Shown piece after piece: positions 2,173 to 30,433 of a stretch of DNA of 41,329 nucleotides (the stretch's first letter is position 1; every line of letters starts with the position of its first letter). The DNA is taken from contig PWLN01000103.1 of NCBI GenBank assembly GCA_003559375.1, forward strand, positions 1-41,329, given 5' to 3'. Source of the stretch: Balneolaceae bacterium. Lineage in GTDB: Bacteria; Bacteroidota; Rhodothermia; Balneolales; Balneolaceae. The notes below the pieces were generated by a model, which made no database searches, was not told the origin of the DNA, and worked only from the letters and a program-made list of their open reading frames with translations. The translations under genes and the position numbers were made by a program.

Positions 2173-2287
2173 GAATGAATCACTTTTTTATGAAATGATT
2201 ATGAACGCAGATTCATTATGTTGTATGTACTTTAAGAGCTTTAGTATTTTAATTTTGGTTATGCGATGTTTTGAAATGATAGTTAAT

Positions 2288-2320
2288 GGACAATAGACAA
2301 TAGACAATAGACAATGGACT
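2288..2320. repeat. Heptamer tandem repeat (GGACAAT/AGACAAT)n
   Basis: ggacaat-agacaat-agacaat-agacaat-ggact, 7-bp period. Confidence 0.95.
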
Positions 2321-5184: not shown

Positions 5185-5480
5185 TTACCGGCAAGTAACA
5201 TGTTGGAGTACATCACTTGCCCAATCAACGTATTCTGGCCTTTCTATGAATTGATAAGCTGCAAACATGCGAAGTCCCATAATTTTCCCCGCATTTAACA
5301 TTTCTACATAATGGCTAAGTAAATTTTTGAATTCGGTTTCTGTAGCCATCTTCAACTTCATCGTAAAAATCGTTGAGATACATTCCCATAATGCCGCTAT
5401 GTTCTTTCGATAGTTCTGCAATCCAACGGGCATGACGCAGCGACATTTCATGCGTCCAGCCCCATGCAGCGCGTTCAATT
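5185..5480 (-). pseudogene. Frameshifted gene fragment of unidentified family
   Basis: Two minus-strand frames give one plausible protein: LAKIERAAWGWTHEMSLRHARWIAELSKEHSGIMGMYLNDFYDEVED then ATETEFKNLLSHYVEMLNAGKIMGLRMFAAYQFIERPEYVDWASDVLQHVTCR. Removing one G near 5349 joins them. Confidence 0.6.
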
Positions 5481-5893: not shown

Positions 5894-7021
5894 TTAGCCC
5901 TGGCACCAATATCCTGTTCTTTCAAGATCATATATATCATCCTCAATAAGCTGATAACTGTACAAAGATTTCAGGATAACAGCATCATAACCAGGTTTTG
6001 GCCGTTTATAAACAGGGAAATGTACTGAAGGAAGCATCCAGTTTATGATTGTTCCAATTTCATCCTGCCCCATCATTAAGCGTGGATATGTGCTTCCTGT
6101 TGTACGCAGATTCATCTCCTGGGCTTTCTGAACTCCATTTTTATCAGGCCTGAATTGTATGGAAAGCGGGCCAAATCCACCTTCTTCTATAAAAGCTTCA
6201 GCAAAGCGGTTTGCAAGCTCTTCCAATTCTGGATGATGTACCCGCTGCAATTTTGTGACAGCCCCAAAATTGTGATGATTTTTCAAAACAAAGATTTCAC
6301 CTATGCTACCGTCCGGACTGATAGGAACATGACATGTGTGATGCGACACACCTGGTATTTCAGTAAACAACGGTTTTGGCCCTTCGAGAGATGTTAAATA
6401 ATTCCGTACATCATCAGGATTGCCAAGATATTCTTGTAACATATATTCATCCTGATCATAGAAATGTACTGCATCTTTCCAATCCCCTACAAAATACACC
6501 CCTTTTGAAGCGAAACCTTGAATTGGTTTAGCTATTACAGGATATCCGAAACTATTGATAAATTCTTCTAAATCATTGTTCTCGATCTGTTCCCTTTTTA
6601 TGATTGATTCTGCAAATGGTAACTGATACTTTTTGCAAAAAAGATAACTTTTCCATTTATCAAGTGCGCAGTCCACAGATTGCAGGCTGCCATAAGGTAA
6701 TTTCCCGGGTAGTGTGTTATCTTTAATTTTTAATAGTTTATTTGCATAGGTATCTGCATCTCTGGCACACAATATTAAATCCGGTTCGGTTTTTTTGATA
6801 ATTTCACACATGGTTTCCGGATATTCTTCTGATGCAGTCGGTGGCACAAGATAACACTCATCACAACGAAAATTATTTGCTGTTAATGAAATACTGTTTG
6901 TTCCTGTTATATGGACAAGATTACGCCGGTTAAACTCTGGAAATTCCAGTGCATCAAGAATATTCTGCCCGACCAAACTACCTACACTTGCAATTAAAAT
7001 TTTAATTTTATCCTGTGCCAC
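5894..7021 (-). CDS. ATP-grasp domain protein (carbamoyl-phosphate-synthase-like fold)
   Basis: 375 aa; KILIASVGSLVGQNILDALE N-terminus, DKWKSYLFCKKYQLPFAES, GYPVIAKPIQGFASKGVYFV, and AQEMNLRTTGS metal-binding end. Confidence 0.82.
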   Translation of the reverse strand: MAQDKIKILIASVGSLVGQNILDALEFPEFNRRNLVHITGTNSISLTANNFRCDECYLVPPTASEEYPETMCEIIKKTEPDLILCARDADTYANKLLKIKDNTLPGKLPYGSLQSVDCALDKWKSYLFCKKYQLPFAESIIKREQIENNDLEEFINSFGYPVIAKPIQGFASKGVYFVGDWKDAVHFYDQDEYMLQEYLGNPDDVRNYLTSLEGPKPLFTEIPGVSHHTCHVPISPDGSIGEIFVLKNHHNFGAVTKLQRVHHPELEELANRFAEAFIEEGGFGPLSIQFRPDKNGVQKAQEMNLRTTGSTYPRLMMGQDEIGTIINWMLPSVHFPVYKRPKPGYDAVILKSLYSYQLIEDDIYDLERTGYWCQG

Positions 7022-7071
7022 TTAATTTTGAATAATAGTATTCATGATTAGTAAGTTAATGTCCTCGACTT

Positions 7072-7782
7072 TCATATCTTTCTGACATCCATGGTTTTGT
7101 TTACCCAGGGAAAGCGGGTTTCATTACTCTTTTTACCGGTAAACCTGCATAATTCTTGAAAGGCATTTTTTTCTGCAACATTGAGTACCAAAAGATCATT
7201 TGGCCGATTTCTGAAATAATTTTTAACACATCGGTTATGGCTGATATATCTTTCTTTCATCAGTTCTCTGTCATATGGGTCAACATCGGGTTCAAGGCCA
7301 TTTAACTCCTGTATTTCCAAAGGCCTGCCTTTATATATATAGAACGCTTCTTTTAAATCCTCTCGTGTTGGAACTTGCCCATTCTTTCCATACATCATTG
7401 AGTGAAATCGGATTCGAGAATCAACCCATTGGTCTGGAGTATCACGAATAGTAAGAATAAACTTGCTGCCCGGAAATGCCTGGTCCAATGCAATGAACGT
7501 GAACGGATAACTGAAGGGAAAATCCTGAAAAAATTGTGCAGACCTGCAATAACGAATTAGCCTTCTGAAATCCCGCTTTGCCCAGTCATGCAACATCAGC
7601 TCTGCCTCCCTCTGGTTTCCAATCCTGAAACCAAGTTGGCGCATCGCCACTTTTAATGACGATGTTCCGGTTTTATTCATTCCTATACCGAAATATTTTG
7701 TTTTTCCATAACATGCAATGATGCCATTCAAATATTGGAGACGTTTTCTGATTCTGGCCGGAATGAAAGCCACTTTTCTCAT
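7072..7782 (-). CDS. Sulfotransferase family protein
   Basis: 236 aa; KYFGIGMNKTGTSSLKVAMRQLGFRIGNQ (5'-PSB loop) and PGSKFILTIRDTPDQWVDSRIRF (3'-PB region). Confidence 0.85.
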   Translation of the reverse strand: MRKVAFIPARIRKRLQYLNGIIACYGKTKYFGIGMNKTGTSSLKVAMRQLGFRIGNQREAELMLHDWAKRDFRRLIRYCRSAQFFQDFPFSYPFTFIALDQAFPGSKFILTIRDTPDQWVDSRIRFHSMMYGKNGQVPTREDLKEAFYIYKGRPLEIQELNGLEPDVDPYDRELMKERYISHNRCVKNYFRNRPNDLLVLNVAEKNAFQELCRFTGKKSNETRFPWVNKTMDVRKI

Positions 7783-7882: not shown

Positions 7883-9043
7883 CTACTGATCTTTACTGAT
7901 TATTTCATCAATCTTCTCAGATACAACAGAAGGATCTTCGTTCACTTTTGTTGAACGATCTCTCCACCAGTTTGCCAAAAATGATCCTGAGATGTTCATC
8001 CATGGGCCAAAAACTGCTGGTGCAAGCCCCATAGTTGCAGCTCTTCCCATTTCTACCGCAATACCGGATGCGAGTCCTCCATTTTGCATTCCAACTTCCA
8101 AAGCGATTGTACGGCACGATCTTTCGTCCATACCTATCAGACGGCATCCCCAATAACCGAAAAAATAACCTGCTGCATTATGAATCATAGCAGCCAGAAC
8201 CAGTAATAATCCAATCGTAAGCAGGTTATCCCTGCCGGCAGCTGTTATTACGCCAATGATAATTACAATACCGGCCATCGATATCACAGGCATGGCATCA
8301 TGCAGCCACTGTGCTTTTCCGCGGAAAAGCCAGTTGAAAATCAAACCGGCTATGATTGGGAAAATGACCATTTTAAAAATGCTTACCATCATGGCATAAA
8401 AATCGATCGGTACAAATTGGCCTGCAAACAGCTGCATGAGAAATGGTGTGGTAAATGGAGCCAATAGTGTTGCCACAGCCGTGAGTGTAACTGATAGGGC
8501 CAGATTCCCTTTTGCAAGAAATGCCATCACATTGGATGCAACCCCGCTGGGCGATGACCCAATCAGCACCACACCGGCAGCGATTTCCGGTGGAAATCCG
8601 AATGAAATGGCCAGTGAAACCCCAACCAACGGCATAATGGAATACTGGCAGACCAATCCTACTCCAACTGCTTTCGGCATTTTTATTACTCCTGCAAAAT
8701 CCTTAAGGCTTAACGAGGTTCCCATACCAAACATAATGATCTGGATAAGGGGAACAATCAGCCGTTCAGTATTATAGCCCCTTACTTCGGTGATCATGGA
8801 TGGATAAAACATGGCCAGTGTTACAGAGGCAAACACTGATACTGTAAATGAAAAACCTTTCAGATTCGGAAATTTTCTTATCCCGATAGCCATCAACACA
8901 AAAAAACCAACCGCAAAAAAGCCGATTTCAGACCTGTAACCCAATAGAAACATCACAAAAATGGCAGGAATACACAAAATCGAAAGATTAAAACAAACCC
9001 TGTAAAACTTTTCCTTTAACTCCATTCTATATGTTTCATCCAA
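7883..9043 (-). CDS. Bile acid:sodium symporter (BASS) family transporter
   Basis: 386 aa multi-TM protein; GMGTSLSLKDFAGVIKMPKAVGVGLVCQYSIMPLVG and GSSPSGVASNVMAFLAKGNLALSVTLTAVATLLAPFTTPFL motifs. Confidence 0.88.
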   Translation of the reverse strand: MDETYRMELKEKFYRVCFNLSILCIPAIFVMFLLGYRSEIGFFAVGFFVLMAIGIRKFPNLKGFSFTVSVFASVTLAMFYPSMITEVRGYNTERLIVPLIQIIMFGMGTSLSLKDFAGVIKMPKAVGVGLVCQYSIMPLVGVSLAISFGFPPEIAAGVVLIGSSPSGVASNVMAFLAKGNLALSVTLTAVATLLAPFTTPFLMQLFAGQFVPIDFYAMMVSIFKMVIFPIIAGLIFNWLFRGKAQWLHDAMPVISMAGIVIIIGVITAAGRDNLLTIGLLLVLAAMIHNAAGYFFGYWGCRLIGMDERSCRTIALEVGMQNGGLASGIAVEMGRAATMGLAPAVFGPWMNISGSFLANWWRDRSTKVNEDPSVVSEKIDEIISKDQ

Positions 9044-9079
9044 TATTTTTCAACTTCAAAAATCCACCATCAAACATCT

Positions 9080-9107
9080 CCATTGTCCATCGTCCATTGT
9101 CCATTGT
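9080..9107. repeat. Heptamer tandem repeat (CCATTGT)4
   Basis: ccattgt-ccatcgt-ccattgt-ccattgt. Confidence 0.95.
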
Positions 9108-9125
9108 CTATAGACTCTAAACCAA

Positions 9126-10094
9126 TCACCATGTCCTCTGCTGCAAATACTCCTGCATTTCCTCAACCGGAACCGGCAATCTGTTAATCCGATCCGCTTC
9201 CTTCACCCAGTTCAGAAAATCTTCCTCAATTTCCGCAGTCCATCTTGCATCTACCTGCCCGGGCGTATAGACTCCGGCCCTAACCCGCTCATGTACAAAT
9301 TCATCGCGCAGTGTCACAATCTCTGCTGTAACTACCACCTGTTCTACAAGATGCGGCGGGATAAACACCACTCCGATCTGCTTTGCAAGAATCACATCTC
9401 CCGGAAATACCGTAACACCTCCAATCCGCACCGGAACATTAATTCCCATAAGCATAACTTGCTCAAGAAATGATGGATGCCAGCCTCTTGTAAATGCGTT
9501 GAAGCCATTAATCGCAGACAGAGTTTCTGCATCGCGCAGTGATCCATCAAAGATAACGCCGTTTTCAGAACGGGCGAAAATGGAGTTACCGAGTTTGTCG
9601 CCAATCAAAGTTCCCTGGGCTATTTTTCCGAAATTATCCGCCACATAGATATCCCCCTTTTGTAGCTGATCAATGGGCCAGGAATTCATGGCTCCGATTT
9701 GCCCCGCATCAATTCCATCCTGAAACATTTTCTGCTGAATATTCGGCCGTAGCGGCATATAGTGTGCTGTAAGTGCCCTGCCTGTCATGGGCCTGTCATC
9801 ATGCAGAATTTTCCAGTTCCCCTCAAACTGATTTCGATACCCAAGCTCATTCAGAAGCTGCCATACATCTTCCACCTTGATCTTTTTTAGCCGGTCCAGC
9901 CATTCATCCGACACTAACGGCCTCCCGTCTGGAAGTCGGTTTCCATCCCATTCAGAGGTGTAGTAGAGAATCTGCTTTTGAGAAGCCATAACAGGGTCAC
10001 CCTGAACAGTCTGTCCAACAGCCTGAATAGCCATGCATTGAACAGCAATAGCAATAATTATTAGTTTGGTATTCATCTTTATGGTATTCATCAT
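9126..10094 (-). CDS. Secreted RraA/HMG-aldolase-like family protein
   Basis: 322 aa; signal peptide MNTKLIIIAIAVQCMAIQAVGQ; RraA-type core GDIYVADNFGKIAQGTLIGDKLGNSIFARSENGVIFDGSLRD and PVRIGGVTVFPGDVILAKQIGVVFIPPHLVEQVV. Confidence 0.82.
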   Translation of the reverse strand: MMNTIKMNTKLIIIAIAVQCMAIQAVGQTVQGDPVMASQKQILYYTSEWDGNRLPDGRPLVSDEWLDRLKKIKVEDVWQLLNELGYRNQFEGNWKILHDDRPMTGRALTAHYMPLRPNIQQKMFQDGIDAGQIGAMNSWPIDQLQKGDIYVADNFGKIAQGTLIGDKLGNSIFARSENGVIFDGSLRDAETLSAINGFNAFTRGWHPSFLEQVMLMGINVPVRIGGVTVFPGDVILAKQIGVVFIPPHLVEQVVVTAEIVTLRDEFVHERVRAGVYTPGQVDARWTAEIEEDFLNWVKEADRINRLPVPVEEMQEYLQQRTW

Positions 10095-10141
10095 TCAATA
10101 TGATTGTTCACTGTTTTTGTTCGGCTATATCACCTGTCAAT

Positions 10142-11485
10142 CTACTGAGTTGACACTTCAAGCCGTTCAAGTGTACCCAGTAATGCCCTTACTGTATGAT
10201 AGTTTCCTTTCCAAATATGGCTTTTTCTTGATCTTACACTGTTTGGAGTATTGTCCAGCCCGTAGTTATACCAGCCGCCATGCTCACTGTCGAATAACCA
10301 GGTTTTGATATAATCCCACTGCATGATAAATTTTTCGTAATAGTCCATTTCATCAACAGGATAAAGATCAGCCATGATCAGAAGGGTATTCAATCCTTCA
10401 GCCTGTGCCCACCAGTTTTTGGATTCATCCAGAATTGTGACGTGATCGTCACCTTTGAAATAATACCCGATATTGAAAAAACCGCCGGTTTGGTTGTCCC
10501 ATCCCGTTTCAAGAGTGTGGTCTGTCATGATTTTGGTAATTTGATGTGTTCTTTCATCGTGATCCCTTCCAAGTGCGTGTGCCGCCTCAAGAAGCAGAAA
10601 AGCTGTCTCAATATCATGCCCTGGAGTTACATGATCATAATTAATATTTTCCAAAATCAGGGCTTCCGTTGAATCACGGTAAGAAAGATGAGTCCAGTCA
10701 TCACGAAAATAGAGTTTAAGATAACCTTGTTCGGCTGTCATTGTATCCCGAACTACGTAAAACATCTCCTCAAGACGCTCCCTTACCGTTACATCCGGCC
10801 AGGCTTCATAAAATTCAGTGAGCGCCTCCAGAATATGAATACCGCTGTTATAATCTTTGGGGTATCCGGATGTTTCAGGTGTTCCATCTCTGGCCAGCGG
10901 CTGGAAATACCCTCCGTAGACTTTATCATGAGAATGGTCATCAAGCCATTGAAATAGTTGATTCGCCAGATAGAGAACATCCGGATCACCGGATAGCCTG
11001 TAATAAGCAGCGAGGCCATAAAGTGCAAAGGCGTTGCCATACAATGTCTTTCCAAAATCACCCTGATTATCGGGGATCGGCACTCCCTCACGGGTAACCA
11101 TTTGAAAAAAACCACCGTATTCTTCATCCCACATCTTGTCCCTCAGAAACTCGAAACCATGTCCAGCATATTCTGCATAACTACTATCCGGGTACTTTCC
11201 TGCAAGCTTTGACAGAGTCCAGATATGACGTGCCTGTGTCACTATCATTTTCTCCTGTGCCTCCTCTTGCTCCCATTTGTATGAAAAATTGCTCAGATAG
11301 CCACCATATTCCCGGTCAATCACACGAGGATACCACGCATCGAGTTTTCTATCCAGCTCTTCTTGAATTTCAGCTGCAACCGGGGCCCGCTCATAAACCG
11401 GTAAATGATGTTCATGTCTGTTGCAATTCAAAACGAGATACGGCAACATCAGTAAGATGGCAAAAAGAATTGAATTATTTTTCAT
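10142..11485 (-). CDS. AGE (N-acylglucosamine 2-epimerase) family epimerase, probable lipoprotein
   Basis: 447 aa; lipobox-like MLPYLVLNC; AGE-family segments QARHIWTLSKLAGKYPDS, YGNAFALYGLAAYYRLSGD, PGHDIETAFLLLEAAHALG, KNWWAQAEGLNTLLIM, WKGNYHTVRALLGTLERL. Confidence 0.87.
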   Translation of the reverse strand: MKNNSILFAILLMLPYLVLNCNRHEHHLPVYERAPVAAEIQEELDRKLDAWYPRVIDREYGGYLSNFSYKWEQEEAQEKMIVTQARHIWTLSKLAGKYPDSSYAEYAGHGFEFLRDKMWDEEYGGFFQMVTREGVPIPDNQGDFGKTLYGNAFALYGLAAYYRLSGDPDVLYLANQLFQWLDDHSHDKVYGGYFQPLARDGTPETSGYPKDYNSGIHILEALTEFYEAWPDVTVRERLEEMFYVVRDTMTAEQGYLKLYFRDDWTHLSYRDSTEALILENINYDHVTPGHDIETAFLLLEAAHALGRDHDERTHQITKIMTDHTLETGWDNQTGGFFNIGYYFKGDDHVTILDESKNWWAQAEGLNTLLIMADLYPVDEMDYYEKFIMQWDYIKTWLFDSEHGGWYNYGLDNTPNSVRSRKSHIWKGNYHTVRALLGTLERLEVSTQ

Positions 11486-12910
11486 CTAACTCCATGTCCT
11501 GTCCCAGGAGCGGATCTGATTCCACTCCGGTGTTGGTGCAAATAATTCTTCTCCTTCTATCAGGTACTTTTGCAGCATCTCATACACTGGTTCGGCACCC
11601 AGGCCGGGAGCTTCCGGCACGTTGATATATCCGTTCTGTACCAGCGGTTTTTCTATCCCGGTAATCAGGTTGTCAAAGTCGGGTTCATCAACAGAATGGT
11701 GTTCCAGAACCCCGATATATTGGCACGCTGCTGCTGCATGAACCGATGCGAGCATACCAAGCGGCGAACCGGCATAGTGCAGATTTGAAGCGATCCCGTT
11801 TTCAGCCGCATAGTCTACAATCCTCTTGGTTTCAAGGATGCCGCCAGCCGATCCAAGGTCCGGATGCACCAGGTTTACCGCCCGTTTGTCTATGAGTTCT
11901 TTAAAGCCTTCCAGGCCAAAAATATCTTCTCCGGTCATGGTCGGGGTTGTGGTTGCCTCTGTGATATCCCGCCAGTCGTCAAAATAGAACCATGGAATAA
12001 GGTCTTCCATATAGGCCAGTGTGTATTTTTCCATCCTGCGGCAAAGCTTGATGGCTTCATTTTTATCAAAGTGGCCGGTATGATCTATTCCAAGCTGAAC
12101 CTCATATCCCACGGTTTCACGCATTACACGTACATACTCTTCAAACAGATCGAGCCCTTTTTCAGTAATCTGAACCCTTGTAAATGGGTGTTTGATCTGT
12201 CCATATTCCCCCTGTCGTGGAGAATACTGGCTTTGCAGCCTTCGATCTCCATAGGGTACATGGGCATGTGTGTTCACCAGCACATCGCTGCCTCCCACTC
12301 TTGAAATCAGTTCCATTCCGAGATCCATTTTGAGGGAGGTATAGCCTTTATCAACACGTGTTCGTTTCATGAGCCGGGCATACTCATGGGGATCTGCCAC
12401 TACTTCCGTATCGGCATAAACACGAACCCGATCACGGTATTTCCCACCAAGAAGCTGGTAAACCGGTACTCCATATGCTTTTCCGGCAAGATCCCAAAGT
12501 GCTGTCTCCACACCCGACACCCCACCGCCTAAACGGCCATGATTGGCGAACTGTTTAATCAGCTTGAAGATCTTTTCCACATTACATGGATTTTCACCTA
12601 AAATCCGGCTTTTTAGCATGAGGGCGTATTCTTTTGCCGCTCCATCCCTCACGTCGCCATAACCGGATATCCCCTGATTGGTATCGATACGTACAATCGG
12701 TGTTCTGAAAATCACGCCTCCGATTTCTGCAATACGCAAGTCGGTAATGCGCAATTCTGAGGGCGAAGAATTCCGGTTTACTTTAGATGTGAGATATTCA
12801 AGCTGATTTTCATAAGGTGCTATTGCCATTGCTCCGAGGCCAAGCCCTCCTAATCCGGCAGTTTTCAGAAAATCGCGACGACCTTTATCATTATGTGGTT
12901 TTCGCTTCAT
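11486..12910 (-). CDS. Mandelate racemase/muconate lactonizing (enolase superfamily) enzyme with Tat signal
   Basis: The start at 12910 gives MKRKPHNDKGRRDFLKTAGLGGLGLGAMAIAP (twin-arginine signal); the track's extra N-terminus is repeat DNA. Core: GVSGVETALWDLAGKAYGVPVYQLLGG, metal-ligand candidates LGIDHTGHF, LAYMEDLIPW, TGEDIFG, and HYAGSPLGMLASVHAAAA. Confidence 0.85.
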   Translation of the reverse strand: MKRKPHNDKGRRDFLKTAGLGGLGLGAMAIAPYENQLEYLTSKVNRNSSPSELRITDLRIAEIGGVIFRTPIVRIDTNQGISGYGDVRDGAAKEYALMLKSRILGENPCNVEKIFKLIKQFANHGRLGGGVSGVETALWDLAGKAYGVPVYQLLGGKYRDRVRVYADTEVVADPHEYARLMKRTRVDKGYTSLKMDLGMELISRVGGSDVLVNTHAHVPYGDRRLQSQYSPRQGEYGQIKHPFTRVQITEKGLDLFEEYVRVMRETVGYEVQLGIDHTGHFDKNEAIKLCRRMEKYTLAYMEDLIPWFYFDDWRDITEATTTPTMTGEDIFGLEGFKELIDKRAVNLVHPDLGSAGGILETKRIVDYAAENGIASNLHYAGSPLGMLASVHAAAACQYIGVLEHHSVDEPDFDNLITGIEKPLVQNGYINVPEAPGLGAEPVYEMLQKYLIEGEELFAPTPEWNQIRSWDRTWS

Positions 12911-12946
12911 GTTTTCAAGATTTGTAGTTATTTGGTTATGGTAGGA

Positions 12947-12995
12947 AAAAGTGAAAAGTGTAAAATCAAAAATGAAAAGTGAAAAGTGAAAAGTG
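12947..12995. repeat. Heptamer tandem repeat (AAAAGTG)7
   Basis: aaaagtg-aaaagtg-taaaatc-aaaaatg-aaaagtg-aaaagtg-aaaagtg, in strict 7-bp phase. Confidence 0.95.
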
Positions 12996-13089
12996 TTCAG
13001 CATGCAAATTTTGAACTTGATTCAGAATTCACATGCTCGTGAAAAGTGAATGAATTTTTTTCATCTTCAGGAAAAACTCAAAATATTAC

Positions 13090-13117
13090 TTTTCAGTTTT
13101 CAGTTTTCACTTTTTTC
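13090..13117. repeat. Heptamer tandem repeat (TTTTCAG/C)
   Basis: ttttcag-ttttcag-ttttcac-ttttttc; inverted orientation relative to 12947-12995. Confidence 0.9.
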
Positions 13118-13131
13118 TCAAAATACTCCAA

Positions 13132-14121
13132 TCACTCGAGCCAAACCCGCCAGTTTCGCGATCCCGTTTCAATAACCCGATTTATGGTTTCTAAGCCCAC
13201 ACGCTGATCTTGATTCAACCGAGTACGGTTTTGTTCAAGCCATTCAAAAAAATCTGCCTCAATGGAAGCCGACCATCTTGTGCCATAGGTTTCATCAAGC
13301 GAATAAATGCCTTCCTGAATCCGCTGAATTCTGAATGCATCCGTCAGTCTTTCCACTTCAGAACTCACGATAACAGTTTCTGCCAAATGAGGCGGGATAA
13401 ACAGTACTCCTCCCTCTGTTGCTAAAACCACATCACCGGGAAGTACAATGGCTTCACCAATCCGTACCGGTCCGTTGATGCTGATAAGCATCATTTCCCG
13501 TATAAAAGAGGGATGCCATCCCTTTACCCAGGCATTAAAACCTACGATTTCCCTTATACCACCCAGATCACGAGCAGAACCGTAAAAAACAGGCCCATTC
13601 CCTGAATTGGTATAAATCGCCTGAGCCAGATTATTCCCAATCAGCGTGCCTTCGTTGATTTTTCCAAATCCGTCTGCAACATATACATCACCATTTTGCA
13701 GTAAATAAATCGGCCATTGATTCGCTCCGCCCTGAAATCCTTGCTGCAATCCCTGTTCGTTCATTCGCTCTGCAAGTTCGGAGCTTGCCGGCAGAAATGC
13801 CGCGGTTAGTGCACGACCGGTCATGACTTTTTGCGGGTGAATGATATGCCAATCCCCCTCAAATTTGTTGTTATAACCGGCTCCTCTGATCGTCCCCCAG
13901 GCTTCTTCCAGGCCAACATACTTCATACGTTTTAATATTTCATCTGAAACAAACGGCCTTCCGAAGCGATCTCTCTCACCTTCCCATTCAAGGGTGTAAA
14001 AAATGACCTGATCATTTGGCACAAGTTGTGGCTGTGCTGTTACACTGTTAGCAATAATTAAACCTATTATGAAGGTTGCAACAGTGTATGTAAGTGATCC
14101 GGACCTCTTATGGGCGTTCAC
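13132..14121 (-). CDS. Secreted RraA/HMG-aldolase-like family protein (paralog of 9126-10094)
   Basis: 329 aa; signal peptide ...YTVATFIIGLIIANSVTAQ; same core GDVYVADGFGKINEGTLIGNNLAQAIYTNSGNGPVFYGSARD and the same C-terminal extension (RWSASIEADFFEWLEQ). Confidence 0.82.
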   Translation of the reverse strand: MNAHKRSGSLTYTVATFIIGLIIANSVTAQPQLVPNDQVIFYTLEWEGERDRFGRPFVSDEILKRMKYVGLEEAWGTIRGAGYNNKFEGDWHIIHPQKVMTGRALTAAFLPASSELAERMNEQGLQQGFQGGANQWPIYLLQNGDVYVADGFGKINEGTLIGNNLAQAIYTNSGNGPVFYGSARDLGGIREIVGFNAWVKGWHPSFIREMMLISINGPVRIGEAIVLPGDVVLATEGGVLFIPPHLAETVIVSSEVERLTDAFRIQRIQEGIYSLDETYGTRWSASIEADFFEWLEQNRTRLNQDQRVGLETINRVIETGSRNWRVWLE

Positions 14122-15760: not shown

Positions 15761-15802
15761 GCAGATGGCTGATAGCTGATAGCTGATAGCTGATAGCTGA
15801 TA
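15761..15802. repeat. Heptamer tandem repeat (GCTGATA)n
   Basis: gcagatg-gctgata x5. Confidence 0.95.
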
Positions 15803-15918
15803 GAAACATGTCACAATTAAACACATCAAACAAAACTTTACATTCACGGCATGAGTCGTAACTAAATAGTTTTTATAAAATAACTAATCAAACTAACTTT
15901 TTAACAAACAAATAAGCA

Positions 15919-18968: not shown

Positions 18969-20231
18969 TCAGGCTAACAATGAAATGAATGCTGCTATCA
19001 GGCCGGGAATCACTGCAAGGATTAGCAATGTAATGAGCTGTCGGCTCTCTCTCATTCCTACAAAAAAAGCAAAGATAAAGCCTTTCACAACCGTATTTGT
19101 TGCAGATGCCAGAACAATACCCATTACAGCAACATCATGGCTCAACTCATCCAGTGCAAGGCGGGACAAAGAGAGGGTGATTGCATCAACATCCATGAGG
19201 CCGGAAATCACCGATAATACATAGATTCCCCGGTCGCCAAATAAATTGAGCATGGCCGCTGATAAAAACATAATGATCGCAAGCAAAAGGCCGAACTTGA
19301 TAGCCATCGTCAGCTTAAATGGGTTATCGAGCTGCAAGTCTGGATCAGCCTGTTTATATACGCCCTTCTTCCAAAGCCAGTAACCGCCTCCCAGCACGCA
19401 AAAAAACATTAATGTAACCGGAAGCCATAAATCATTCAAAAGAAGAGGATTAACAATAGCAACCTCGACCATAACCCGGATAAACATGATGGATGATGCA
19501 ATCATGACTCCCCCCATAAACATACTTTTAGCAGGAAACTCTTTTGCAAACTGGGACAGGCTGAGTGTTACCGCTGTTGACGATGCCAGGCCTCCGGTTA
19601 TGGATGTAACTAATGTTCCCATCCTGTTTCCGATATGTTTGATTGCAAAATATCCCACGAACGATATGCCGCATATCAAAACAACCATCAGCCATATCCA
19701 ATAGGGATTCAGTGATTCCCAGGGGCCAAAACCTCGATTTGGAAGCAATGGCAGCAATATCACTGAAATAATGAGCAGTTTGATACCGGCATAGATCTCC
19801 TCTATTTCGATGTTTCTGAGCCATTTGTGGAGTACAGGTTTCATTCCCAATAAAGCTACTGCAACAACAGAAGTAGCCAATGCATAATTATAAAAACCCA
19901 TCGCTGCCCATGCTGAAAGAGCAAATGTGAGCATCATTGAAAAAGCGGTTGTAGTGCCAAGGTCACCGCTCGTTCTGGCTTCAAGTACATGGCCGGCAAC
20001 AATCATGAGGGACACGGCAAGAAAAGAGGCTGCCAAAAACCAGTCACCTAACTCCACAGAAATGATCGCACAGATTCCACCGAGCAAGCCAAGAAGACTG
20101 AACGTTCGAAGTCCGGCCACACGAACACCTTCTTCTTCTTTACGCCCGCTCCAGCCTCTCTCAATTCCGATCAGAAGCCCGATTGCAAGTGCTGCGAGAA
20201 GTTTAATGATGATTTCAAATTCTGTGTCCAT
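18969..20231 (-). CDS. MgtC/DUF4010 family membrane protein
   Basis: 420 aa; LLAALAIGLLIGIERGWSGRKEEEGVRVAGLRTFSLLGLLGG N-terminus; C-terminal GLMDVDAITLSLSRLALDELSHDVAVMGIVLASATNTVVKG. Confidence 0.85.
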   Translation of the reverse strand: MDTEFEIIIKLLAALAIGLLIGIERGWSGRKEEEGVRVAGLRTFSLLGLLGGICAIISVELGDWFLAASFLAVSLMIVAGHVLEARTSGDLGTTTAFSMMLTFALSAWAAMGFYNYALATSVVAVALLGMKPVLHKWLRNIEIEEIYAGIKLLIISVILLPLLPNRGFGPWESLNPYWIWLMVVLICGISFVGYFAIKHIGNRMGTLVTSITGGLASSTAVTLSLSQFAKEFPAKSMFMGGVMIASSIMFIRVMVEVAIVNPLLLNDLWLPVTLMFFCVLGGGYWLWKKGVYKQADPDLQLDNPFKLTMAIKFGLLLAIIMFLSAAMLNLFGDRGIYVLSVISGLMDVDAITLSLSRLALDELSHDVAVMGIVLASATNTVVKGFIFAFFVGMRESRQLITLLILAVIPGLIAAFISLLA

Positions 20232-20249
20232 ATCACCAATTTACAAAAC

Positions 20250-21407
20250 TCATTCAGCAGATTTCTTCTTCGCTTTTTCAGTTGCTTTCCGCCTGAGTTC
20301 GCTCACTTTTTTCGCAATTGCACTGCGCTCTTCACTTTTATCACCGGTTTCCCGCCCCAGCAGGTATCCAAAGTGGTTCAGTGAGTCTACTTCATCACAA
20401 ATCACCTTAATAATGGCACCGAGAGGAATAAACAAGATCATACCGGCCAATCCCCATATTTGAGCTCCTATAAAAATCAGCAGCAGCGTGGCAAGGGCAT
20501 TCATGCTTACCTGGCTTCCAACAATAGTTGGGGTAAACAAATTGCTCTCGAAAAGCTGGATAATGTAAAAGCCCAATAAAATAATGAGAGGATAGATCAG
20601 GGAATCCATCGTGATCAGTGAATAGAGAATCGGCAGGATTGAACCCATGATGGGGCCAACAAACGGGATTACATTCAACATAGCCGCAAAAACACCGAAA
20701 AAGATAGCATGATCCACGCCTATCACTGTAAGCATAATGGAATTTAATACAGCCAGTATGGCAATAACCATCAGCAACCCGGCGATATATCGTTGAACAA
20801 GGGTTTTTACCTTGTTGATGATCACTCTTACTTTCTCTTCATTGCCGCTGATTCCTTTACCAAATGCCTTTAATACAAATGTTTTAAGCAAATCACGAAA
20901 CAGTAAAATCAGATACATATAAACCGGGACCAGGAAAACTGCCGTGATGGTTGAGGCCGCTCCGGTTATACCCCTGGTAAGGGAGGCCGTATTTTCTCTT
21001 ATAAAATCAATAATTTCAGATACAACACGATCCAGGTTTATTTCCCCTTCAACTCCAAACCAGGTCGCAAGAAATACATCAAATGATTCGATCAGCTCTT
21101 CCAGGCGCTCCACAAACATGTCGGCATCCCGTGCAAAAGCTGCCATTTGGTTATAAAAGAAAAATCCGATACCTGCCAAAAACAACAAACCAACAATAAT
21201 GGCTGCTAATGAAGAGAGTATCCTTGGCACCTTATAATTTTCCAGCCACCTGCAAATGGGAGATAACAAAATCGAAAAAAAGAGTGCAAAGAGTAGTGGC
21301 AGCAGTATGGTTTTTGCCATGATCATGGCATAAACTGTAAGAATCAATGCTGCAAGAAAATAGGTGTACTTTACATACCATTTTTGCTCAACGTCTGTCA
21401 TAATCAT
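20250..21407 (-). CDS. AI-2E (PerM-like) family transporter
   Basis: 385 aa; ILLPLLFALFFSILLSPICRWLE, FFGVFAAMLNVIPFVGPIMGSILPILYSLI, GSQVSMNALATLLLIFIGAQIWGLAGMILFIPLGAIIKVICD. Confidence 0.9.
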   Translation of the reverse strand: MIMTDVEQKWYVKYTYFLAALILTVYAMIMAKTILLPLLFALFFSILLSPICRWLENYKVPRILSSLAAIIVGLLFLAGIGFFFYNQMAAFARDADMFVERLEELIESFDVFLATWFGVEGEINLDRVVSEIIDFIRENTASLTRGITGAASTITAVFLVPVYMYLILLFRDLLKTFVLKAFGKGISGNEEKVRVIINKVKTLVQRYIAGLLMVIAILAVLNSIMLTVIGVDHAIFFGVFAAMLNVIPFVGPIMGSILPILYSLITMDSLIYPLIILLGFYIIQLFESNLFTPTIVGSQVSMNALATLLLIFIGAQIWGLAGMILFIPLGAIIKVICDEVDSLNHFGYLLGRETGDKSEERSAIAKKVSELRRKATEKAKKKSAE

Positions 21408-30324: not shown

Positions 30325-30393
30325 TTTGTCGGGACTTTTGCTATCGCTCAAACTTTTCGCTTCGCGGGAATCGCTACCGCTCGAAGCACTTTT
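30325..30393 (+). repeat. 69-bp dispersed direct repeat, copy 1
   Basis: tttgtcgggacttttgctatcgctcaaacttttcgcttcgcgggaatcgctaccgctcgaagcactttt; ungapped match to 34182-34250. Confidence 0.88.
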
Positions 30394-30433
30394 CACTTTT
30401 CACTTTTCACTTTTCACTTTTCACTTTTCACTT
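30387..30433. repeat. Heptamer tandem repeat (CACTTTT)6.7
   Basis: Six perfect cactttt units plus a partial unit. Confidence 0.97.

Follow-up and report, generated by a model that had tools for sequence, protein, structure and literature searches.

A candidate extracytoplasmic sugar-acid-to-keto-acid pathway with exported MR/MLE and RraA-family proteins and a BASS-family symporter

The contig PWLN01000103.1 of a Balneolaceae bacterium (assembly GCA_003559375.1), of which all 41,329 nucleotides were analyzed and are called the window below, carries five consecutive open reading frames (ORFs) on the minus strand between positions 7883 and 14121. In the direction of transcription, they encode an RraA-like protein (RraA-1), an enzyme of the MR/MLE group of the enolase superfamily (MR), an AGE-family epimerase, a second RraA-like protein (RraA-2), and an SBF/BASS-family Na+ symporter. 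All five exceeded the curated Pfam cut-offs, in agreement with the families that an earlier note had assigned from the sequence alone. We propose that the locus is probably the core of an extracytoplasmic pathway from sugar acids to keto acids, in which RraA and BASS would act on or after a 2-keto-3-deoxy acid. The window corresponds to contig C458 of a genome (G000) of 4.19 Mb that is 92% complete and whose close relatives include metagenome-assembled genomes (MAGs) labeled Balneolaceae and Rhodohalobacter sulfatireducens.

Linkage, export signals, and conserved residues of the module

A profile scan of genome contigs with an alignment of MR proteins yielded 80 loci from Bacteroidota (including Balneolia and Rhodothermia), Planctomycetota, Verrucomicrobiota, and Omnitrophota, and the 76 loci with an intact MR gene were used for counts. 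Within three genes of MR, we found RraA at 51 of these 76 loci, BASS at 24, both at 21, and AGE at 7. When the neighboring ORFs were clustered over the MR loci, MR, RraA, BASS, and AGE ranked first, followed by SusC-like, sulfatase, and SusD-like proteins. In eight relatives, RraA, BASS, and MR (which is sometimes doubled) formed the constant part, while the flanks differed; contig ends cut two of these loci. Among 60 near genomes, RraA was present in 9/9 MR carriers versus 4/51 others. The relative G011 (L025) has the same five-gene order, and G020 probably does too, with its genes divided between two contigs.

The locus could also be a loose set of exported enzymes for unrelated glycans that are neighbors by chance or phylogenetic inertia, as the variable AGE and flanking genes and the 22 of 76 MR loci without RraA or BASS nearby might suggest. 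However, the association of RraA, MR, and BASS persists in several bacterial phyla even where the flanks differ, and because a genome of thousands of genes has at most a few RraA genes, random placement predicts adjacency at well below 1% of loci, compared with the 67% observed. We thus judge this explanation very improbable. The MR-RraA-BASS linkage is not due to chance, and the exported module is real and conserved across phyla. The earlier note had named conservation of an MR, AGE, RraA, and BASS neighborhood as a check, and this conservation was seen for all but AGE.

Export was called by sequence motif rules only. The earlier note had seen export signals in four of the five proteins, and these are visible in the window as GRRDFLKTAG in MR, LVLNC in AGE, and, for both RraA proteins, a hydrophobic N terminus that closes with AQ or GQ. 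Relatives show such signals too: 83 of 87 MR proteins had a twin-arginine (Tat) motif, the other four appearing truncated or mis-started in the ORF set, and 77/84 RraA proteins had a strongly hydrophobic N terminus, compared with 271/640 unlabeled ORFs. The few KDG (2-keto-3-deoxygluconate) kinases and the KDPG (2-keto-3-deoxy-6-phosphogluconate) aldolase in the same data had no export-type N termini. MR and RraA thus appear to be exported, with signals conserved in their orthologues.

MR (positions 11486 to 12910, minus strand), which resembles acid-sugar dehydratases, scored 146.6 bits with MR_MLE_C (PF13378; cut-off, 29.4) and 44.5 bits with MR_MLE_N (PF02746; cut-off, 22). Lys194, Asp196, Asp276, Glu302, Glu328, Asp351, His378, and Glu403 were found in 87/87 orthologues when aligned with the solved relative 2qq6, so that the three acidic metal ligands and the His-Asp dyad (D276, E302, E328, D351, and H378) are conserved. 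In the motif D-H-x-G-H, the D-H pair and the G are invariant and the last H is almost invariant, whereas 2qq6 has D-x-H. MR fell below every NCBIfam equivalog cut-off (for example, 175 versus 311 for galactonate dehydratase); therefore, its substrate cannot be named. An AlphaFold2 model built from 11 sequences was poor (pLDDT, 69) and was not used. Enolase-superfamily acid-sugar dehydratases share a product class, 2-keto-3-deoxy acids.

RraA-1 (positions 13132 to 14121, minus strand; 329 amino acids from a GTG start) and RraA-2 (9126 to 10094, minus strand; 322 amino acids) both have an RraA/HMG-aldolase fold assignment and a Sec-type signal, with PF03737 scores of 56.1 and 74.3 bits, respectively; RraA-2 is of the kind that is paired with BASS. 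The model of RraA-2 (pLDDT, 91.5) gave 3k4i, 5x15, and 3noj as top Foldseek matches. R123 and D124 form a catalytic/metal pair in HMG/CHA aldolase (PMC5065237). At the positions of this active site, the exported RraA set conserved R123 in 84/84, D124 in 83/84, and Asp102 in 68/84 proteins, and RraA-2 has equivalents of all three. We rejected a role of these proteins as RNase E regulators, since they look exported and contain the R-D pair of the aldolase, and also discarded a LigK-type aromatic pathway, as no aromatic-degradation genes were recognized in the neighborhoods examined. A third RraA of the source genome belongs to a different exported subfamily (L122:8666-9550), scored ∼29 bits against the profile, and has Ser at the Asp102 equivalent. 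Another member was found at L123:6118-6990, with similar proteins at five further loci (L124, L126, L127, L131, and L132). At L122 and L123, the gene adjoins a putative lipoprotein that resembles, by eye, DUF1080/3-keto-disaccharide hydrolases, and the subfamily shows no linkage to MR or BASS. The RraA fold and profile are also matched by PDB entry 5ir2, whose title, that of a novel gut-microbe cellulase, may be a misannotation.

BASS (positions 7883 to 9025, minus strand) scored 139.4 bits with PF01758 (cut-off, 24.3). The best BASS model was that of the ketopantoate/pantoate carrier PanS, for which the protein remained below the equivalog cut-off (253.8 versus 400 bits), and its nearest relatives were PanS and, among structures, ASBT-YF and ASBT-NM. 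ASBT-NM binds pantoate and needs Asn265 for binding (PMC10645422). BASS has the Asn265 equivalent, and the equivalent of Thr112 is Val in the window and Val, Leu, or Met across the set.

AGE (positions 10142 to 11485, minus strand), a putative lipoprotein of the AGE/cellobiose 2-epimerase family, scored 127 bits with PF07221 (cut-off, 23.4) and 141.7 bits with the EpiA model (cut-off, 800), and is closest, among solved structures, to N-acylglucosamine and cellobiose 2-epimerases. The lipobox of the window protein (LNC) is atypical; AGE orthologues of the window type have more regular ones, such as CTGC and IGGC. AGE is an accessory of the module, and its presence at only 7/76 loci led us to reject epimerization as the core step that the earlier note had made of it.

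Candidate upstream enzymes and possible fates of the keto acid

Several relatives suggest what precedes RraA and BASS. At L029 (genome G012), the module shares its cluster with KDG kinase, KDPG aldolase, and SusC/D, and also with a pyrroloquinoline quinone (PQQ) dehydrogenase, an SMP-30 lactonase, and two UxuA-family proteins whose signals are Tat-like. PQQ dehydrogenase accompanies the MR module at L049 and, together with SMP-30, at L040, and a Tat-type UxuA-like protein occurs at L039. RraA and BASS also occur without MR, next to exported EF0837-type amidohydrolases, DgaE-like pyridoxal phosphate (PLP) lyases, and Rid proteins (L118 and L119). The same set was found in distant Bacteroidota families (L137, L138, and L140), often with SMP-30-like and CBM9 proteins. 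The amidohydrolases exceeded the PRK09237 cut-off, the Tat-type DgaE-like lyases scored ∼200 to 210 bits (below the cut-off of 385), and the Rid proteins had Tat- or lipoprotein-type N termini. Some clusters of this type lack parts of the tail, namely, RraA in L141 and both RraA and BASS in L134, L136, and L139. From the families involved, these clusters look like an extracytoplasmic amino-sugar-acid pathway, and the proximity of Rid proteins to PLP lyases, both exported, is consistent with extracytoplasmic enamine/imine chemistry.

Three kinds of upstream enzymes thus meet the RraA-BASS tail: MR, UxuA-family proteins, and the amidohydrolase/DgaE-like/Rid set. The products of gluconate- and mannonate-type dehydratases, as of glucosaminate-type lyases, are 2-keto-3-deoxygluconate or its isomers, and the family names point to a KDG-like intermediate that the routes may share. 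Our best reading is that RraA and BASS form a common tail of the MR and amino-sugar-acid routes. In the pathway that we propose, a sugar acid would be formed in the periplasm by a quinoprotein dehydrogenase and a lactonase, as relatives suggest, and Tat-exported MR would dehydrate it to a 2-keto-3-deoxyaldonate such as KDG. This keto acid would be the substrate of one or both Sec-exported RraA proteins, for which the simplest role is that of a metal-dependent pyruvate lyase, and BASS would import the resulting 2-keto acid with Na+, while AGE would widen the range of entering sugars. Every reaction, the stereochemistry of the substrates, and the cargo of BASS are inferred here. The epimerize-dehydrate-cleave scheme of the earlier note stands in that relatives place an exported route in sugar-acid metabolism; it needs revision in that AGE is optional and the oxidation step was missing, for which several Balneolaceae relatives supply exported PQQ dehydrogenase and/or lactonase genes. 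A complete periplasmic pathway resembling the nonphosphorylative Entner-Doudoroff route, with oxidation, dehydration or deamination, cleavage by an RraA-fold aldolase, Na+-coupled import by BASS of pyruvate only, and an amino-sugar branch with an exported PLP lyase and Rid protein, is a bolder version that we advance tentatively.

The keto acid might instead be imported intact. MR would make periplasmic KDG, BASS would carry it across the membrane, and cytoplasmic KDG kinase and KDPG aldolase would complete its degradation, leaving to RraA another role, such as keto-acid isomerization or dehydration of a side substrate. The source genome encodes KDG kinase and KDPG aldolase (G000:C69), and both genes lie within the module cluster at L029. 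KDG kinase was found in 12/12 MR carriers versus 101/285 other genomes of a phylum sample (Fisher P = 6e-6) and, within the family, in 7/7 MR carriers versus 10/29 others among the genomes listed. KDPG aldolase was detected in 47/50 named MR carriers and a KDG-kinase-like match, weak in a few cases, also in 47/50. This co-occurrence favors some import of intact keto acid, as does the resemblance of BASS to PanS, together with the Asn265 of the pantoate site of ASBT-NM (PMC10645422). On the other hand, genomes often carry KDG kinase and KDPG aldolase for unrelated reasons, and two MAGs with RraA-MR-BASS (L100 and L104) had no detected KDPG aldolase and sugar kinases that were only ∼30% identical. 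Moreover, RraA probably acts directly on the product or substrate of MR, since its linkage to MR is more frequent than that of BASS (51 versus 24 of 76 loci). Intact import therefore strikes us as a real contender, though one we would not bet on. Pyruvate, to which the earlier note pointed through plant BASS2, becomes only one option for the cargo of BASS, given the pantoate/ketopantoate carriers nearest to it and the co-occurring kinase and aldolase.

RraA could also dehydrate, or dehydrate and decarboxylate, the 2-keto-3-deoxy acid in a Weimberg-like route, with BASS importing a semialdehyde or a dicarboxylic keto acid. FlDet of the alginate degrader Flavobacterium sp. UMI-01 is an RraA-family dehydratase/decarboxylase and not an aldolase, converting keto-deoxyglucarate to alpha-ketoglutaric semialdehyde, and its closest characterized relative is the Streptomyces coelicolor RNase E inhibitor RraAS2, the protein of 5x15 (PMC8563752), which is also the best sequence match of the exported RraA proteins. 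Yet FlDet, a cytoplasm-type protein of 237 amino acids, accepts only keto-deoxyglucarate and not KDG (PMC8563752), and no semialdehyde dehydrogenase was recognized as a recurrent neighbor among the clustered neighbor ORFs of the MR loci. We therefore find such a route unlikely.

Our reading of the locus as the core of an exported pathway covers all cases in which RraA and BASS act on or after a 2-keto-3-deoxy acid, so that intact import and the dehydration route are partly nested within it and the confidences that we attach to the readings do not add up to one. Several observations weigh against it, in addition to the MR loci without RraA or BASS nearby. RraA-1 and its close orthologues have Asn (in a GNN motif) at the Asp102 equivalent, although R123 and D124 are present; with the precedent of FlDet (PMC8563752), this means that aldol cleavage by RraA is not supported in the form that the earlier note gave it. 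The substrate of MR is uncertain, because MR has D-H-x-G-H where solved relatives such as 2qq6 have D-x-H. PQQ dehydrogenase and lactonase genes do not adjoin the module in the window, and the source genome offers no more than a partial PQQ gene, at the end of a contig. The association with KDG kinase may partly reflect larger genomes and uronate catabolism (for example, L133). For the fate of the keto acid, we slightly prefer cleavage by RraA, then intact import, then dehydration.

Gene starts, repeats, and flanking genes of the window

The start of MR is probably the ATG at 12910 rather than 13003, because the orthologues start shortly before GRRxFLK, and that of BASS is probably the ATG at 9025, the listed ORF beginning at a TTG at 9043. 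With these starts, ∼220 bp separate RraA-1 from MR; the start of AGE directly abuts the MR stop, and 47 bp lie between AGE and RraA-2. A promoter scan was uninformative, with 19 candidates found versus 15.6 in shuffled sequences. Tandem heptamer repeats with differing units (for example, CACTTTT repeated 6.7 times and AAAAGTG repeated 7 times) occur in the window (2285-2319, 9075-9108, 12947-12995, 13090-13114, 15764-15803, and 30387-30433), mostly in intergenic positions, among them the RraA-2/BASS and RraA-1/MR gaps.

Genes for an ATP-grasp-like and a sulfotransferase-domain protein (5894-7782) lie between BASS and an ORF near 5185. We excluded them from the module, as they are missing at that position in G011; they look inserted in the window (or lost in G011), because there the homologue of the ORF near 5185 directly follows BASS. 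Upstream of the module are AI-2E-family and MgtC/DUF4010 genes (18969-21407), which in G020 (L024/L120) appear on both flanks of the module, split over two contigs; this suggests local rearrangement around the module.

Comparison with known systems

Central sugar-acid metabolism is taught as cytoplasmic, and the proposed pathway consists of known kinds of chemistry in an unusual compartment. We found no description of an exported sugar-acid pathway with keto-acid import in the literature searched, which misses most subscription journals. If our reading is correct, Bacteroidota and several other phyla would carry out part of sugar breakdown, PLP-dependent deamination among its steps, beyond the inner membrane, and the compound taken up would be a small keto acid rather than a sugar. 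The reading would also provide testable functions for several uncharacterized exported families (Tat-type MR, RraA, EF0837-type, DgaE-type, and Rid proteins) and a likely class of cargo for a large BASS clade.

MR shares the MR/MLE fold, the Mg ligands, the His-Asp dyad, and the Glu with the cytoplasmic D-galactonate, gluconate, and mannonate dehydratases of the enolase superfamily but differs from them in its predicted Tat export, in D-H-x-G-H in place of D-x-H, and in a long insertion after strand 2. RraA-2 has the fold of HMG/CHA aldolase (3NOJ; Foldseek E value, 8e-14), whose R123 and D124 are almost invariant in the exported RraA proteins; the latter are predicted to be exported, are longer at both ends, and are only ∼20% identical to it, and RraA-1 lacks Asp102. 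FlDet, compared by description only, is likewise an RraA-family protein of Bacteroidota that acts on a 2-keto-3-deoxy sugar acid, but it has no cleaved signal peptide, as judged from its sequenced native N terminus, and differs in neighborhood and in its strict substrate. PanS, ASBT-NM, and plant BASS1/2/5 share the fold and the Na+ symporter family of BASS and take small hydroxy or keto acids, whereas here the Thr112 equivalent is replaced and the gene is linked to predicted periplasmic enzymes. Finally, the ong oxidative chitin pathway of Pseudoalteromonas converts N-acetylglucosaminate (GlcNAc1A) via glucosaminate (GlcN1A) to KDG in the cytoplasm, as demonstrated biochemically (PMC9537276). 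Like the amino-sugar branch, it employs a deacetylase, a PLP deaminase, and a Rid protein before KDG, but with enzymes of other families (D-aminoacylase type and fold-type III PLP), while clusters such as L119 combine EF0837-type and DgaE-type proteins that are predicted to be exported.

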